From Terriglobales bacterium (GTDB lineage: Bacteria > Acidobacteriota > Terriglobia > Terriglobales > Acidobacteriaceae), in the NCBI GenBank assembly GCA_025935035.1, contig JAICWB010000005.1, positions 1 to 32,241 on the forward strand: DNA of 32,241 bases. The letters are read 5' to 3'. Position numbers and translations under genes: made by a program. The notes under the pieces were generated by a model that was given only the letters and a program-made list of their open reading frames with translations, did not search any database and was not told the origin of the DNA. Positions 1,156 to 9,253 of the stretch are shown here, in pieces (positions within the stretch are counted from its first letter, which is position 1; each line of letters starts with the position of its first letter).

Positions 1156-1236
1156 GCGGCGAAGGTCGCCTCGCGCCGTTTTGTATAATCGTTGGTTCGC
1201 AACAACTCACCATCCCAATCAGGAGCACCCCTGATC

Positions 1237-2130
1237 TTGCATTCAGAGGTTTCGCATCAAGCAGAGATAGGCATCATCGGCGGCAGTGGCCTGTATTCCA
1301 TGCCTGGCCTCACGGCCGCGCAGGAACTAACGCAGACCACGCCGTTTGGCGCGCCGTCTGACGCCTACGTGCTAGGCACACTGGAAGGCCGCAAAGTCGC
1401 CTTCTTATCGCGCCATGGCCGTGGGCACCGCATCTCGCCCAGCGAGCTGAATTTCCGCGCCAACATCTATGGGTTCAAGCAGCTTGGTGTGGAACGCATT
1501 CTGTCTGTCTCCGCCGTCGGCTCACTGAAGGAAGAACACAAGCCCACTGACTTCGTTATTCCCGACCAGTTCTTTGACCGGACGCGCCATCGTGTGGACA
1601 CATTTTTTGGCGACGGCATCGTCGCGCACGTTTCGCTCGCCGATCCAGTCTGCGGCGAGCTGGCGAAAGTCTTTGCGGGTGCTTGTAAAACCGTGGGTGT
1701 CGTCGGAAAGCTCGGCGGCTCATATGTCTGCATGGAAGGGCCGCAATTCTCCACGCGCGCCGAGTCAAACGTTTATCGCAGTTGGGGAATGGACGTCATC
1801 GGCATGACCAACCTGCAAGAGGCACGGCTCGCTCGCGAAGCAGAGATCTGCTACTCGACGCTCGCGATGGTCACCGATTATGACTGCTGGCATACCGGGC
1901 ACGATGCCGTCACGGTGGAGCAAGTAGTCGCGGTAGTCCATCAGAACGCGGAGAACGCTCAGAGAGTGCTTCGCCAAGCTGTGGCTGCTTTGCCGAAGGT
2001 ACGCGGATGCAAGTGCGGTTGCGCTCTGGCGAGCGGGATCATGACGGACCCTTCCAAGATCCCCGCGGTAGCGCGTGAGAAGTTGAAGCTGATCTTGGAC
2101 AAGTATCTTGAGAAGAAGGTGAGCGCCTAA
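1237..2130 (+). CDS. mtnP: S-methyl-5'-thioadenosine phosphorylase (MTAP/PNP family)
   Basis: IGIIGGSGLY, LSRHGRGHRISPSELNFRANIYGFKQLGVERILSVSAVGSL, GMTNLQEARLAREAEICYSTLAMVTDYDCWH. Start taken as TTG 1237 (CTG 1231 also possible) behind AGGAG at 1221-1225. The ORF track starts at TTG 1192. Confidence 0.9.
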   Translation: MHSEVSHQAEIGIIGGSGLYSMPGLTAAQELTQTTPFGAPSDAYVLGTLEGRKVAFLSRHGRGHRISPSELNFRANIYGFKQLGVERILSVSAVGSLKEEHKPTDFVIPDQFFDRTRHRVDTFFGDGIVAHVSLADPVCGELAKVFAGACKTVGVVGKLGGSYVCMEGPQFSTRAESNVYRSWGMDVIGMTNLQEARLAREAEICYSTLAMVTDYDCWHTGHDAVTVEQVVAVVHQNAENAQRVLRQAVAALPKVRGCKCGCALASGIMTDPSKIPAVAREKLKLILDKYLEKKVSA

Positions 2131-2132
2131 CC

Positions 2133-3047
2133 ATGTCGATCCTGGTCGTTGGCTCAGTCGCATATGACGGCATCAAGTCTCCCGCAGGTTCTGTGGACCG
2201 CGTGCTGGGAGGCTCCGCGACTTATTTTTCCATCTCCGCGAGCTTCTTCACGCAGGTGCGCGTCGTCGCCGTTGTAGGGGATGATTTTTCCAAAGAAGAC
2301 GAGCAGGTACTGCTCGATCGCAAAGTCGATCTGACCGGATTACAGCGCGTTCCGGGCAAATCATTTTTCTGGCGGGGCGAGTACAACGAAAATCTGAACG
2401 AAGCCCACACGCTAACGACTGAACTGAATGTATTTGAAAAGTTCCAGCCGCAGATCCCGGAGAGCTACAAAGACAGCGATTATCTCTTTCTCGCCAACAT
2501 CGATCCCCTCTTGCAGATGGGCGTGCGTGACCAGATGAATAGATCCATGCTAGTCGGTTGCGACACGATGAATTACTGGATCAACAGCAAGCCCAATGAA
2601 CTGGCGCAGATCCTAAAGAAAGTGGACGTCCTGCTCATCAACGATGGTGAAGCGCGCATGTTGGGCAAGACTGCGAGCTTGCCGCGCGCCGCCCAGAAGA
2701 TCTTGGCGCATGGCCCGCGCGTGCTGGTGATCAAACATGGCGAGTACGGCGCCACCGCATTTTTCAAAGAAGCGGGCATGCATCCCTTCCGTGCGCCGGC
2801 GCTGCCCGTGGAAGAAGTAGTGGATCCCACGGGAGCTGGGGACTGCTTTGCGGGCGGGTTTATGGGATACATAGCCGCGCAGAGCGAGTTAAACCGCGAA
2901 GTATTCAAGCGGGCGATGTTCTTCGGCGGCGTGATGGGCTCGTTTGCCGTGGAGAAATTCGGCCCCGAGCGGTTCAAGACACTCAAGCGCGCCGAGATCG
3001 ATGCTCGCTTCGAACTCTTTCGCGAACTCAGCCATCTAGAGGACTAG
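2133..3047 (+). CDS. PfkB-family carbohydrate/nucleoside kinase
   Basis: Ribokinase-like fold motifs: GGSATYFSISASFF near the N-terminus, DPTGAGDCFAGGFMGY at the C-terminus. Starts 2 bp after the mtnP stop. Confidence 0.85.
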   Translation: MSILVVGSVAYDGIKSPAGSVDRVLGGSATYFSISASFFTQVRVVAVVGDDFSKEDEQVLLDRKVDLTGLQRVPGKSFFWRGEYNENLNEAHTLTTELNVFEKFQPQIPESYKDSDYLFLANIDPLLQMGVRDQMNRSMLVGCDTMNYWINSKPNELAQILKKVDVLLINDGEARMLGKTASLPRAAQKILAHGPRVLVIKHGEYGATAFFKEAGMHPFRAPALPVEEVVDPTGAGDCFAGGFMGYIAAQSELNREVFKRAMFFGGVMGSFAVEKFGPERFKTLKRAEIDARFELFRELSHLED

Positions 3048-3063: not shown

Positions 3064-4656
3064 TTGCGCAAGAATCCCCACTCCGACGAGACGGTGCTGA
3101 CCATCATCAGCACGGTCATGGCGCTGGTCGCATTTGCTTGGTTCTTTCGGCACAACGAAATACTTCTATACGGCGATGCGGTCGCGCACATCAACATCGC
3201 GCGCCGTGTGATTGATTCCCTCACGCCTGGACCGCTGCAACTAGGCACGGTCTGGCTGCCGTTGCCGCATGTGTTGATGCTGCCGTTCGTCGCCTCTGAC
3301 GTAGCCTGGCAAACGGGCATCGCCGGGTCGATCTGGTCAATGCTGGCCTTTATGTTTGGCACGGTCGGGGTGTACGGCATCGTCTCGCGACTTGCATCGC
3401 GTCCTGCGGCTTGGCTGGCAGCGCTGATCTACGCATGCAATCCAAATCTTTTGTATCTGCAATCGACGGCGATGACGGAGTCGATCTATTTGGCAGCGAT
3501 GGTCTGGGCGATTGCTTACTTGATCGAGTTCGTTCAAGGCATCAGTGAACAGCGCGGGTTGACCGCTGGTAGTGCGCTTACGAAATGCGGTATTGCGCTG
3601 GCTGCCGCCATGTACACGCGATATGACGGCTGGGTGCTTGCTGCCGTGGTTGCGCTGTGTGCGTTGTTTTATTTCAGTCGCAGCAGCTCTGAAGTTAGAG
3701 CATCACTTGGCCGTAATCCGATAATCTTTGCTGTGCTCGTCGTCATTCCGCCGCTCTCATGGCTGGGATACAACTGGCTGGTCTTTCACAACGCGTTGGA
3801 ATTTGCCAACGGTCCCTATTCCGCGCGCGCCATTGCAGCGCGAACCATGGCAGCCGGTGGCTCGCCTCATCCGGGATACCGCAGTCCTTGGGTGGCATGG
3901 ATCTACTTCATCAAGTGCGCCAAGCTCAATGTTGGCGACGACAAATGGCAGAACGTTTTGCTGCACATCGCCGTACTGGCGAGTCTGCTAGGCGCTCTGC
4001 GCAAACAATGGCGGCCGGCACTGCTGCTATGGCTACCTTTGCCGTTTTACATTTTTTGTATTGCCTATGGCGGCGTGCCCATCTTCATTCCAGTCTGGAC
4101 GCCGTACTCGTATTACAACGTTCGTTATGGCTTGCAACTTCTGCCCGTGATTGCGGTCTTCACCGGGCTGGGCCTCGAGTTGGTCCTGCGCGTGAACTAC
4201 TCGCGCCGATTCAATCTGATCGCGGTGGCCGTGTTCGCCCTGGTCGCCGCCTTGAGTTATGTAAGCGTGGTCCGCGGTGTACCTTTGTGCTTACGCGAAG
4301 CGAGGGCGAATGCCGTCACCCGCATCGGGTTCGAGACCGCACTGGCCAATGAACTACGTTTCTTTCCCAAAGACACCACTTACATCATGTACACGGCAGA
4401 CCATGTAGGGGCGTTGCAACGTGCCGGCATTCCGCTGAAGCAAGTGGTGACTGAAAACAATTGGGGATACTGGCAGCGCGCGCTCGAAGCTCCAGCGAAA
4501 AACGCAAATGTTGTGATCTCCATCGGCGACGATCCGGTAAGTGTGGCCGTCAAGAAACATCCCGACGACCTAGAGGAGTTGGAAGTCCTGCATACTAACG
4601 GACAGCCTCCCGCCCGCATCTATCAAAGCCACGCCAGAGTATCGCCCCCGCGGTGA
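3064..4656 (+). CDS. Polytopic membrane protein, GT39/ArnT-like glycosyltransferase
   Basis: Many hydrophobic segments. An acidic residue in the first loop (LLYGDAVAHINIARRVIDS) followed by WLPLPHVLMLP resembles GT-C/GT39-like proteins. TTG start. Confidence 0.65.
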   Translation: MRKNPHSDETVLTIISTVMALVAFAWFFRHNEILLYGDAVAHINIARRVIDSLTPGPLQLGTVWLPLPHVLMLPFVASDVAWQTGIAGSIWSMLAFMFGTVGVYGIVSRLASRPAAWLAALIYACNPNLLYLQSTAMTESIYLAAMVWAIAYLIEFVQGISEQRGLTAGSALTKCGIALAAAMYTRYDGWVLAAVVALCALFYFSRSSSEVRASLGRNPIIFAVLVVIPPLSWLGYNWLVFHNALEFANGPYSARAIAARTMAAGGSPHPGYRSPWVAWIYFIKCAKLNVGDDKWQNVLLHIAVLASLLGALRKQWRPALLLWLPLPFYIFCIAYGGVPIFIPVWTPYSYYNVRYGLQLLPVIAVFTGLGLELVLRVNYSRRFNLIAVAVFALVAALSYVSVVRGVPLCLREARANAVTRIGFETALANELRFFPKDTTYIMYTADHVGALQRAGIPLKQVVTENNWGYWQRALEAPAKNANVVISIGDDPVSVAVKKHPDDLEELEVLHTNGQPPARIYQSHARVSPPR

Positions 4657-4671
4657 TAAAATCCTTCGCGC

Positions 4672-5388
4672 ATGCATCTGCTTTGGGAAACATTCTCGCC
4701 GAAGATGGACCTGGCAACATTCGTCTCTGAGACGGTGTTGAAGCTGGTCGTCTCGGCGGTGCTGGGCGGCATCATCGGCTTGGAGCGTGAGCTGCGGCAC
4801 AAACCGGCGGGGTTACGCACGAACATGTTCATTTGTTTCGGCGCCGCCATGTATACGCTACTGTCTATGCGCTATTCACATTCCACCGCTGGCGCGAATT
4901 TCGACCCCAGCCGTATCTCGGCACAGATCATTCCGGGGATCGGATTCATCGGCGCCGGCGCGATCCTGCACTCGGGAGCGACGGTCACGGGCGTTACCAC
5001 GGCAGCCACTTTGTTCGTGGTCGCATCTATTGGCATGGCGGTAGGCGGCGGTGAGTACTTGTCCGCGATCTTTGCCACGATCGTGATTCTCGTGGCGCTC
5101 ACGTTGCTGGGCAAGATGGAAGCACGTTTTAACTTCAAACCTCTGACCATGTGTTATGAGGTCATGGGAAATTATCCAGACCAGCTGATCGCGACCGTGA
5201 ACCGCGTGATGGAGGAGCTACGACTGATCACGAAAAGCATCGCCATTGCGCCTTCCAACGGTGGACACCGGGTGCAGTTCACGGTGGACGCGAAGCATAG
5301 AGACCACATGGCGTTGCTGAAGAAATTGCAAAGCACGACCGGCATCGTGCGAGTCGAATCGATCAGGGGAAACGAAGCGAGTGAGTGA
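4672..5388 (+). CDS. MgtC/SapB family membrane protein
   Basis: GGIIGLERELRHKPAGLRTNMFICFGAAMYTLLS and IIPGIGFIGAGAILHSGATVTGVTTAATLFVVASIGMAVGGG are typical of MgtC/SapB; C-terminal ACT-like region. Confidence 0.9.
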   Translation: MHLLWETFSPKMDLATFVSETVLKLVVSAVLGGIIGLERELRHKPAGLRTNMFICFGAAMYTLLSMRYSHSTAGANFDPSRISAQIIPGIGFIGAGAILHSGATVTGVTTAATLFVVASIGMAVGGGEYLSAIFATIVILVALTLLGKMEARFNFKPLTMCYEVMGNYPDQLIATVNRVMEELRLITKSIAIAPSNGGHRVQFTVDAKHRDHMALLKKLQSTTGIVRVESIRGNEASE

Positions 5389-6172
5389 ATCGGGGATCCA
5401 GTTCGTAAAAGCCAGTGGTTGCGGAAACGTGTTTCTGCTTGTGGGCCAGGACCAGATGGCGGCGGAGCATCGGTCCGCAGTTTCCAAGAAGATGTGCAAA
5501 GAGTTTGCAGCAGACGGCGTGGAGTGGATAGCGCCTAGCCCGGACGCAGATGCGGACGTCGATGCCAGCCTTATAAACGCGGATGGCAGCCCCGCGGAGA
5601 TATCAGGAAATGGAACGCGATGCGTGGCTGCGTATTGGCACACGCTGCATGGCAGCGAATTAGTGCGTGTGCGCACCGGCGCGGGAGTAAGACCTTGCAA
5701 GCTACGGGCGCGTGACGGCAATGATTTTGAATTCGAGACCAACCTGGGCCAGCCTGAACTGGAAGGCGTGATGGAGATGTTCCTGCCCGTAGGAAAGTTA
5801 AAGGGCATGAAACTTTCCATGGGCAATCCGCAATTCGTGGTCTTCGTTGAGAGCTTTGATTTCGATTGGAAGAAGCGCGGCGCTGAGATCCAGGCCAAGA
5901 AAGTTTTTTCCAAAGGCGTGAACGTGAGTTTTGTGCAAGTTCTGCGCTCGTCGGAGATCGAGGCGCGGTTCTTCGAGCGCGGAGTCGGGGCGACTCAATC
6001 ATCTGGTACGGGATCGTGCGCGGCGGCAGTTGCAGCCATCGCTGCGGACCTTGTGGTCTCGCCTGTGCGCGTTCGTTCTGAAGGTGGATTGCAGATCGTG
6101 ACGTGGGAGCAGGAAGACGTCATCTTGCGGGGACCGGCGAGCATCGAAGAATCCGGCGAATTCGCCGCTTAA
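5381..6172 (+). CDS. DapF-superfamily (diaminopimelate epimerase-like) protein with both catalytic Cys replaced by Ser
   Basis: INADGSPAEISGNGTRC (canonical NADGSxxxxCGNGxR), MGNPQFVVF (canonical MGNPHxV), VNVSFVQV, FFERGVGATQSSGTGSCAAA (canonical ERGxGETxACGTGxCA). GTG start overlaps the previous stop. Confidence 0.85.
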   Translation: MSESGIQFVKASGCGNVFLLVGQDQMAAEHRSAVSKKMCKEFAADGVEWIAPSPDADADVDASLINADGSPAEISGNGTRCVAAYWHTLHGSELVRVRTGAGVRPCKLRARDGNDFEFETNLGQPELEGVMEMFLPVGKLKGMKLSMGNPQFVVFVESFDFDWKKRGAEIQAKKVFSKGVNVSFVQVLRSSEIEARFFERGVGATQSSGTGSCAAAVAAIAADLVVSPVRVRSEGGLQIVTWEQEDVILRGPASIEESGEFAA

Positions 6173-6186
6173 CTTACAATAGGCAG

Positions 6187-7110
6187 ATGCGCGAGCCCGG
6201 CAAGCCTGCAAGAAATATTCCGAAGATCCCGCGCGCAGGCGACACGCTCGGCATTATCGCTCCGGCCAGCCAGATCAAAAAACAACAGTTGGACGAATCA
6301 TGCGCCTCTCTGCAGAAGCTGGGATTCAAGACCACATATTTTGATTCCATCTTCGACAGCGAACTTTATTTCGCGGGGAACGCTATTCGTCGTGCGTGGG
6401 AAGTGCACAAGATGTTCAAGCGCAGCGATATTGATGGCATTGTCTGCGCGCGCGGCGGCTATGGAACAAATCACCTCTTGCCCCGCATCGACCTTGATGT
6501 GATCCGGGCGCACCCCAAGTTCTTTATGGGATATAGCGACGCCACCTCATTGCTCACATATTTTTGTGACTACGCTGATTTGGTGACCTTCCACGGTCCC
6601 ATGGCGGTCTCTGACCGCGAACAATTTGCGCGAGGAACTTTCATTGACGATGTGACCAGCGGATTCGAATACAGCGCGCGAGTGCAACAGGTCACTGAAG
6701 GCAATGTGACTGGGATTTTTTACGGCGGATGCCTGTCGATGCTCGCGGCGTCGCTGGGCACACCCTATGAGATTCAGACCGAGGGAAGCGTTCTCTTCAT
6801 CGAAGACATTGCGACCAAGCCGTACCAGATCGACCGCATGCTTATGCAGTTAAAGCTGTCGGGAAAGTTGAAAGGCGTGCGAGGAATCTGTTTCGGCGAG
6901 ATGGTGGATTGCTCCCAACCCGGCGGGCAGGACTACACGCTAGTGCAATCTATCCGCAATGTGGTTGCAGATCTGCGGATTCCCGTGGGAATCGGTTTGC
7001 GTTCAGGGCACGTCAAGCCGGATCCGGCGCCAAATCTATGTTTACCACTCGGCATGCAGGTCGAACTCAACGTTACATCAGATGAGGTGACGCTCTCATG
7101 CCGGCCATGA
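6187..7110 (+). CDS. LD-carboxypeptidase, peptidase S66 family (LdcA/MccF-like)
   Basis: PRAGDTLGIIAPAS, CARGGYGTNHLLPRID, GYSDATSLLTYF (nucleophile Ser), LFIEDIATKPYQIDRML, GLRSGHVKPDP. ATG at 6187; the ORF track over-extends to 6103. Confidence 0.88.
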   Translation: MREPGKPARNIPKIPRAGDTLGIIAPASQIKKQQLDESCASLQKLGFKTTYFDSIFDSELYFAGNAIRRAWEVHKMFKRSDIDGIVCARGGYGTNHLLPRIDLDVIRAHPKFFMGYSDATSLLTYFCDYADLVTFHGPMAVSDREQFARGTFIDDVTSGFEYSARVQQVTEGNVTGIFYGGCLSMLAASLGTPYEIQTEGSVLFIEDIATKPYQIDRMLMQLKLSGKLKGVRGICFGEMVDCSQPGGQDYTLVQSIRNVVADLRIPVGIGLRSGHVKPDPAPNLCLPLGMQVELNVTSDEVTLSCRP

Positions 7111-8552
7111 ACGCCTCTCCTGACAACCGGACTGGCAAGCGCGTACACCTCATCGGCATCTGCGGCACGGCCATGGCCTCGCTAGCGGCGCTTTTACAAG
7201 AGCGCGGATATGAAGTCACCGGCTCTGACGCTGCTGCATATCCGCCAATGTCAGATTTTTTGCGCAACCGGGGCATCAAGATAATGGAGCCCTACTCCGC
7301 TGCAAATCTTCATCCCAAGCCGGAGTTTGTTGTAGTAGGCAACGCCATATCGCGTGGCAATGTTGAACTGGAAGAGGTATTGAACAGCCGCATTCCTATG
7401 CGTTCGTTGCCGCAGACGTTGCACGAGGACTTTCTGGCGGGAAAAGAAAAACTAGTGGTGGCGGGTACGCATGGCAAAACCACCACCACATCGATGCTGG
7501 CATGGATGTTGGAGACGGCTCAGGCGCAGCCGTCGTTCCTGGTCGGCGGAATCGCGGAAAATTTCGGCAGCAGCTTCGCGTTGAATCCAGGCGCCATCTT
7601 CGTGGTGGAGGGCGACGAGTACGACTCTGCATTCTTCGATAAGGGACCGAAGTTTCTACACTACTTTCCTGACGCGGTAATCCTGACCTCCGTGGAATTT
7701 GATCACGCTGACATATACAGAGACCTCGATGCGGTGAAGACCGCATTCAAGCGCCTGGTAAACCTGGTCCCGCAACGCGGCCGTATCATCGCCTATGACG
7801 CGAATGTGAATGTGGACGAATGCGTTGCCAGGGCCTTCTGTCAGGTAGAGCGGTACGGTTTTTCTGCGGGCGCCTACTGGCGCATCGTCGATCTCAAGTT
7901 CGCTCCGGAGAAGACTAGTTGGAGGATTTTGAAACAAGGGGAGCCATGGGCTGAGCTCGAATTCTCTCTGGCCGGTGAGTACAACGTATTGAACGCGACT
8001 GCCGCCGCCGCTCTGGCTTATTCCTATGGAGTAAAAGTTCCGGATATTGCGAAGGCCTTAGCTACGTTCAAGAGTGTGAAACGCCGGCTTGAGGTGAAGG
8101 CGCAGGTCAACGGCATCACGATCATTGATGACTTTGCCCACCATCCGACGGCGATATCGGAAACCTTGAAAGCGCTTCGCACGCGTTATTCGAACTCCCG
8201 GCTGTGGGCGATCTGCGAACCTCGGTCGAATACGCTGCGGCGTAAAGTCTTCGAGAAAGAATTAGCGGAAAGCTTGGCCATCGCTGATGAGGCCATCATC
8301 ACAAGCATCTTCAAACCGGAGGCGATCGCTGAGAACGAACGTCTCACGACCGCAGCGGTTGTGAGCCTGATCAAAGCGCAGGGCCGCAACGCCCGCGAGC
8401 TGCGCGATGCTGACGCCATTGTCGATACCATTGCGCCCGAACTGCGCAGTGGCGATGTTGTCGCCATCCTTTCCAATGGCGGATTCGGCAACATTTATGA
8501 AAAACTGCCGCAAAGCCTGCAATCCATGCCAAAAGCCGAGCACCGGGCGTGA
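7098..8552 (+). CDS. mpl: UDP-N-acetylmuramate:L-alanyl-gamma-D-glutamyl-meso-diaminopimelate ligase (murein peptide ligase)
   Basis: VHLIGICGTAMASLAALLQERGYEVTGSD, VVAGTHGKTTTTSMLAWMLE (P-loop), EGDEYDSAFFDKGPKFLHYFPDAVILTSVEFDHADIY, DDFAHHPTAI. The DEYDSAFFDK segment matches Mpl rather than MurC. Confidence 0.9.
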   Translation: MPAMNASPDNRTGKRVHLIGICGTAMASLAALLQERGYEVTGSDAAAYPPMSDFLRNRGIKIMEPYSAANLHPKPEFVVVGNAISRGNVELEEVLNSRIPMRSLPQTLHEDFLAGKEKLVVAGTHGKTTTTSMLAWMLETAQAQPSFLVGGIAENFGSSFALNPGAIFVVEGDEYDSAFFDKGPKFLHYFPDAVILTSVEFDHADIYRDLDAVKTAFKRLVNLVPQRGRIIAYDANVNVDECVARAFCQVERYGFSAGAYWRIVDLKFAPEKTSWRILKQGEPWAELEFSLAGEYNVLNATAAAALAYSYGVKVPDIAKALATFKSVKRRLEVKAQVNGITIIDDFAHHPTAISETLKALRTRYSNSRLWAICEPRSNTLRRKVFEKELAESLAIADEAIITSIFKPEAIAENERLTTAAVVSLIKAQGRNARELRDADAIVDTIAPELRSGDVVAILSNGGFGNIYEKLPQSLQSMPKAEHRA

Positions 8553-9253
8553 TACGCGTAATTATTTGGGCGCTGTTCTACGCCATCATGATCCCGCTCA
8601 TTGGGATCGTTGGCATACCTTGGACGCTCATCACCGGCAGTGTGGAATGGATGTATCGCGCGGCGATGTGGGCAGCTTTCACCGGTGCGAAGATCGCAGG
8701 CGTCCACGTAGATGTGCGCGGGCTGGATAACTTCGATAACAACGGCACATATATCTATATGTGCAACCATGTCTCAAATCTGGACCCGCCCTTAGTAGTG
8801 CCCAGTATTCCCAGACGCAGCGCCGTGTTAGTAAAGAAAGAACTATTTCGTATTCCGCTGCTAGGCACGGCCATGAAAATGGCTTCATTTGTCCCCGTGG
8901 ACCGTAGCAATCGCGAAGCGGCGATCGCCAGCATCCAGCGCGCGACGGAAGTGATGCGTTCGGGCATAAATATCACGGTGTTTCCTGAAGGCACACGCTC
9001 GCCTGACGGCAAACTGCTCCCGTTCAAGAAAGGGCCTTTCCATCTAGCGATGGAAAGTGGAATGAAAGTCGTTCCTATGACCATCTACGGCACGGAGATC
9101 ATGATGCCCAAAAAGACTTGGAAAATTAAAAAGGGAACGGCGACCCTCGTGTTTCATCCAGCCATGTCGCCAGCGGACTTTACTGACCGCGAACAATTAA
9201 TGGCAGCCGTGCGCGACAAAATCGCCAGCGCGCTGCCGGAAGAGATGAAATAA
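8549..9253 (+). CDS. plsC: 1-acyl-sn-glycerol-3-phosphate acyltransferase (PlsC family)
   Basis: NHVSNLDPP (HX4D), FVPVDRSNREAA, VFPEGTRSPDGKLLPFKKGPF. 4-bp overlap with mpl. Confidence 0.88.
   Translation: MIRVIIWALFYAIMIPLIGIVGIPWTLITGSVEWMYRAAMWAAFTGAKIAGVHVDVRGLDNFDNNGTYIYMCNHVSNLDPPLVVPSIPRRSAVLVKKELFRIPLLGTAMKMASFVPVDRSNREAAIASIQRATEVMRSGINITVFPEGTRSPDGKLLPFKKGPFHLAMESGMKVVPMTIYGTEIMMPKKTWKIKKGTATLVFHPAMSPADFTDREQLMAAVRDKIASALPEEMK

Follow-up and report, generated by a model that had tools for sequence, protein, structure and literature searches.

DapF, a textbook cofactor-independent epimerase, normally completes the synthesis of diaminopimelate (DAP), from which lysine and the cell wall are built. 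Its two catalytic cysteines form a thiol/thiolate pair, with pKa values of 6.5 and 8.5 in Haemophilus influenzae (PMC12039745), and this pair is taken as essential to remove a proton with a pKa near 29 (PMC8225329, PMC12039745). Single Cys-to-Ser mutants of PddB keep less than 0.1% activity (PMC8225329), a like loss for Mycobacterium tuberculosis DapF is cited in PMC8225329, and the HisR mutants C67S and C209S are strongly impaired (PMC11602996). The histidine racemases HisR and CntK, as well as PddB and DcsC, share the DapF fold and cofactor-independent two-base chemistry, and all use Cys/Cys. Serine forms of DapF in the PDB are engineered, among them the H. influenzae C73S and C217S structures (2Q9H, 2Q9J), each with one cysteine exchanged in the laboratory in order to slow the reaction. 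Natural catalytic serines on a DapF-like fold are found in the proline racemase superfamily: the consulted sections of PMC4113996 describe a Ser/Cys 4-hydroxyproline epimerase and a Ser/Thr trans-3-hydroxyproline dehydratase from Agrobacterium vitis, and no Ser/Ser epimerase is described in those sections.

Here, we analysed a DapF homologue with serine at both catalytic positions, encoded in a 32,241-nucleotide stretch of a Terriglobales draft genome (contig JAICWB010000005.1; hereafter the window). The open reading frame (5381..6172, + strand, as for all features below; 263 aa) begins with GTG at 5381, the sole start codon between this position and the in-frame upstream stop (5318), ends with TAA at 6170-6172 and shares 8 nt with the end of the MgtC gene upstream of it. 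Both half-domains matched PF01678 (119.5 bits), and the protein scored 166.4 bits against the NCBIfam DapF equivalog TIGR00652, above its cut-off of 114.65. In pairwise alignments to solved DapFs, two serines fell exactly on the catalytic Cys columns: Ser75 (TCA, 5603..5605), in the motif NADGSPAEI-S-GNG, corresponds to E. coli Cys73 and Anabaena Cys75, and Ser208 (TCT, 6002..6004), in ERGVGATQS-S-GTG, to E. coli Cys217 and Anabaena Cys224. Alignment, family model and codons thus confirmed what the initial annotation had proposed, namely a full-length DapF homologue in which serine takes the place of both catalytic cysteines. As the catalytic Cys pair is absent, the window protein is, by its sequence, a Ser/Ser variant of DapF rather than a canonical DapF.

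The predicted structure agreed with this assignment. An AlphaFold2 model (pLDDT 97.1) adopted the DapF fold, with Anabaena DapF, solved in a closed, inhibitor-bound state, as its best match (9MRO; TM 0.91, rmsd 1.9 A, 27% identity), and the top 26 PDB matches were all DapF or O-ureidoserine racemase. The window protein resembles canonical DapF (EC 5.1.1.7; 9MRO, H. influenzae 1BWZ/1GQZ, E. coli 4IJZ) in fold and two-domain symmetry, and has its DAP contacts and, by context, its pathway role in common with it; the aligned canonical structures carry the Cys pair, whereas the window protein carries a Ser pair. It shares with 2Q9H and 2Q9J a serine at a catalytic position, but its two serines are natural and fixed over the class. 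Unlike HisR/CntK, PddB and DcsC, which have the same fold and of which HisR and PddB become nearly inactive upon Cys-to-Ser exchange, it has no catalytic cysteine. Likeness to the proline racemase superfamily was at the level of fold only: there was no match to the proline racemase sequence family, identity in the fold match was 11–17%, the substrate differs, and all 76 aligned Ser/Ser proteins matched PF01678. Likeness to PhzF (PF02567) was also limited to the fold (11–14% identity); the window protein had no match to this family, and one of the 76 Ser/Ser proteins matched it weakly (4.7e-05).

The DAP contacts known from Anabaena DapF are N13, N66, G76, N77, N164, N197, E215, R216, G225 and T226 (PMC12039745), and the window protein keeps all of them, as N16, N66, G76, N77, N149, N181, E199, R200, G209 and T210. 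Following that contact list, Asn16 (5426..5428) would bind the substrate alpha-amine, Asn66 (5576..5578) is a distal DAP contact, Asn149 (5825..5827) and Asn181 (5921..5923) correspond to the distal carboxylate contacts, and Glu199-Arg200 (5975..5980) to the distal amino and carboxylate contacts. Across 93 Ser/Ser proteins, each contact was conserved in 92–93, apart from the position of Thr226 (Thr in 81, Ser in 12), and the catalytic-subsite contacts G76, N77 and G209 were kept as strictly as the distal ones. Among catalytic and DAP-contact residues, only the Cys pair is exchanged. The complete contact set bears out the earlier statement that substrate-binding residues are kept; it argues for DAP as substrate and against changed specificity, one of the options raised in the initial annotation.

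Further departures from canonical DapF had been listed in that annotation. One of them, a GxGFDQ substrate loop reading as GVEWIA, proved to be an ordinary GADG loop: the window sequence aligns as G-ADG-VEW, a version also found in most Cys/Cys relatives. The others (GNVF, MGNPQ and GAT) are present, but they are lineage or sub-clade features separate from the Ser/Ser trait. The Asp of GNDF (D17) is present in 88 of 93 Ser/Ser proteins, and it is the window lineage that reads GNVF. Position 151 is His in 64/93 and Gln in 25/93, with the change from His151 to Gln (MGNPH to MGNPQ) seen in the window genome and its nearest relative; PMC5885031 describes an equivalent His as essential in Cys-type DapF. 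No residue that covaries with the serines and could activate them emerged from a comparison of Ser/Ser with Cys/Cys proteins, in which a divergent Cys/Cys sub-clade confounds the residue differences.

The gene lies in a run encoding MTAP, PfkB, PMT, MgtC, DapF, LdcA, Mpl and PlsC, a gene order shared by much of the class. By profile matches and synteny, the window run comprises an S-methyl-5'-thioadenosine phosphorylase (MTAP; 1192..2130), a PfkB-family kinase (2133..3047) that is a conserved neighbour of Ser/Ser dapF in other classes too, a PMT_2-type membrane glycosyltransferase (3064..4656), the MgtC-family membrane protein whose gene overlaps the dapF start (4672..5388), the LD-carboxypeptidase LdcA of peptidoglycan recycling (S66 family; 6187..7110, in an open reading frame that opens at 6103 with a likely ATG start at 6187), the UDP-MurNAc:L-Ala-gamma-D-Glu-meso-DAP ligase Mpl (7098..8552; 442 bits, cut-off 388.7) and, at the end, a PlsC-type 1-acylglycerol-3-phosphate acyltransferase (8549..9253). 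A promoter scan gave no useful signal. Elsewhere in the window genome, we found DapB (160.4 bits with neighbours, above cut-off), LysA (495 bits) and a MurE, apparently split over two contigs, with the DNPR motif, which we take to be DAP-specific. Searches with PF01678 and with Ser/Ser and Cys/Cys profiles found no second DapF of either type in the window genome, a draft that is 84.9% complete, and the same held for a 100% complete congener (G001), which has a Ser/Ser DapF only. The meso-DAP dehydrogenase Ddh was likewise not found in the window genome or in any Ser/Ser genome tested (PF16654 and TIGR01921, whose positive controls both matched), and we discarded a Ddh bypass for the window genome; the single Ddh found lies in a Cys/Cys genome (G231). 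With TIGR03542, the model for plant-type DapL, only generic aminotransferases matched in Ser/Ser genomes, which says nothing about their route to LL-DAP.

Conservation of the substrate site and this context suggest that the window protein is probably the bacterium's DAP epimerase, working with a Ser/Ser pair. A paralog or a pseudoenzyme, both entertained in the initial annotation, is unsupported for the window genome, as neither a second DapF, including the Cys/Cys copy it had proposed to look for, nor a Ddh was found and Ser/Ser is the norm of the class. Its other suggestion, altered chemistry combined with retained binding residues, stood in part: the exchange of the catalytic pair and the retained contacts hold, changed specificity is disfavoured by the complete contact set, and the possibilities that the protein catalyses another reaction or none persist as rivals. 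In the former case, a DAP-like diamino acid could undergo dehydration, isomerisation or a one-sided elimination at the Ser pair, or the pair could epimerise lanthionine or a DAP-containing peptide. In the proline racemase superfamily, dehydratase activity accompanies a Ser/Thr pair (PMC4113996), and DapF pockets are able to accept lanthionine (PMC12039745). However, the DAP contacts are all unchanged, and the DAP-type MurE, LysA and Mpl of this genome need meso-DAP in a genome where we detected no other source by Ddh or second DapF, so that we regard such a reaction as improbable.

We next consider how the serines are distributed. When the two catalytic positions were typed in 114 DapFs (113 from Acidobacteriota, plus E. 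coli), 93 were Ser/Ser, 19 Cys/Cys (including E. coli), two Cys/Ser and none Ser/Cys. All 53 typed DapFs of the window's class were Ser/Ser; the pair is therefore fixed in the sampled class and common in the sampled phylum. This includes the nearest named record, an independent Acidobacteriales MAG (JAICLA010000046.1; L033/L096) whose DapF is 92% identical and has the same Ser pair. Together with the 93 Ser/Ser homologues among 114, this record ruled out sequencing error, for which homologues with cysteine would have spoken. The serine codons were TCN in 80 and AGC in 13 proteins at the first site, and TCN in 84 and AGY in 9 at the second, and Ala, Thr or Gly never took the place of serine at either site in this set. 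The use of both codon types and the lack of these substitutes indicate that serine itself is selected.

In a DapF tree that omitted the two trait columns and also contained Cys/Cys sequences from other phyla, the core Ser/Ser set (without four f31 and f74 sequences) formed one clade (SH-aLRT 98.9); a single clade for all Ser/Ser proteins was not rejected either (AU p 0.49). Some genera of family f37 have Cys/Cys and others Ser/Ser, each as the only DapF copy, and family f50 also holds both types as the only DapF. This alternation of sole copies within families fits a one-for-one functional replacement.

Several other homologues were noted. Two acidobacterial Cys/Ser DapFs, with the second Cys replaced (L043, L061), are the only DapF match in families f17 and f49. 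Among readable matches, plasmid DapFs of other phyla were Cys/Cys, except for Burkholderia and Sphingomonas plasmid paralogues (L165, L166), which are Cys/Ser with GDDF and CGSATRG motifs. Two near-identical Cys/Ser DapFs with an E. coli-type GFDQ loop lie on two contigs classed as viral in IMG/VR (L160:3001-3777, L161:3001-3777). A second kind of Ser/Ser homologue (L138, L129; GNTYF, SGNGLTIF, FERGEGPTLSSGSS) accompanies the main Ser/Ser copy in genome G316, which has 8% contamination, and a fragment of this kind was found in G260.

Purifying selection acts on the window gene: dN/dS relative to the 92%-identical homologue (L033) was 0.03–0.04, similar to that of the neighbouring MTAP and PfkB genes. 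A decaying DapF copy could be suspected from the loss of the GNDF Asp and the MGNPH His in the window lineage and from the long branch that carries the window/L033 pair. Yet the reading frame is intact, gene order is conserved and the gene is the sole copy, and low dN/dS together with fixation of Ser/Ser across the class and its frequency in the phylum refute decay, which the initial annotation had rightly judged unlikely; we assign it almost no weight.

Some genomes fit less easily. In a member of the same class that is 98% complete in 10 contigs (G055), dapF is precisely deleted from the run, such that the MgtC stop overlaps the LdcA start, with the MTAP-PfkB-MgtC-LdcA-Mpl run otherwise kept (L188:2575-7581); the absence is a real deletion. 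This genome retains LysA and a DNPR MurE, and profile searches detected no other DapF or Ddh in it. As it lacks dapF and Ddh but has LysA and MurE, another route to meso-DAP may exist in the class. In two genomes of family f31 (G118 and G302; L111 and L052 with L141 and L140), a divergent Cys/Cys DapF occurs together with a Ser/Ser copy, in which RIF replaces RC[VA] after the first Ser; at least there, the Ser/Ser protein is a paralogue. Two further absences were noted: in G052 both dapF and its PfkB neighbour are missing, and because the neighbour is absent too, the locus is probably missing from the MAG through an assembly gap; G287 lacks dapF, and DapB as well.

The G055 and f31 cases keep alive the alternative that DAP, or a wall peptide containing it, is still bound by the Ser/Ser protein but no longer epimerised, the protein serving as a sensor or carrier near LdcA and Mpl, with an unidentified enzyme making meso-DAP. 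The near-complete inactivity of engineered Cys-to-Ser forms points the same way. Against this, such a role would presuppose an unknown epimerase in almost every acidobacterium that has a Ser/Ser DapF, and it would leave unexplained why the catalytic-subsite contacts are conserved as strictly as distal ones, why both sites are exactly Ser, and why Cys/Cys and Ser/Ser copies swap within families. We consider binding without epimerisation unlikely, if slightly less so than a different reaction of the Ser pair. Either the serines do DapF chemistry, or a hidden enzyme makes meso-DAP.

If the window protein is the DAP epimerase, it would epimerise LL-DAP and so supply meso-DAP to LysA for lysine and to MurE and Mpl for peptidoglycan. 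Given the conservation of every contact residue, LL-DAP would be held in the same way as by Cys/Cys DapF, and the two domains would close over it. Ser75 and Ser208, each predicted to lie where a central helix begins, would then flank the substrate alpha-carbon on its two faces. One of them may take the alpha-proton as an alkoxide, with the helix dipole and backbone amides stabilising it, and the other may give a proton back on the opposite face. Such catalysis would be surprising chemistry. An alkoxide is a stronger base than a thiolate, yet much harder to form, and thus some feature of the closed pocket would have to compensate.

In the open-access literature searched, whose coverage excludes most subscription journals, we found no description of a Ser/Ser DapF, and no statement on DAP in acidobacterial peptidoglycan was found in the open-access literature searched. 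Automated annotation masks the Cys-to-Ser difference, as the proteins are captured by the TIGR00652 equivalog. A natural lineage whose sole DapF has retained Ser at both sites over a deep divergence offers a system for asking how an alkoxide pair works, or what replaces DapF. If the serines are catalytic, these enzymes should escape DapF inhibitors that target thiols (aziDAP), as well as the redox control of DapF. On balance, we lean, a little less firmly than for the window protein itself, towards the view that most of the phylum makes meso-DAP via a cofactor-independent epimerase with a Ser/Ser acid/base pair, and that thiols would then not be required for cofactor-independent amino-acid epimerases of this class.
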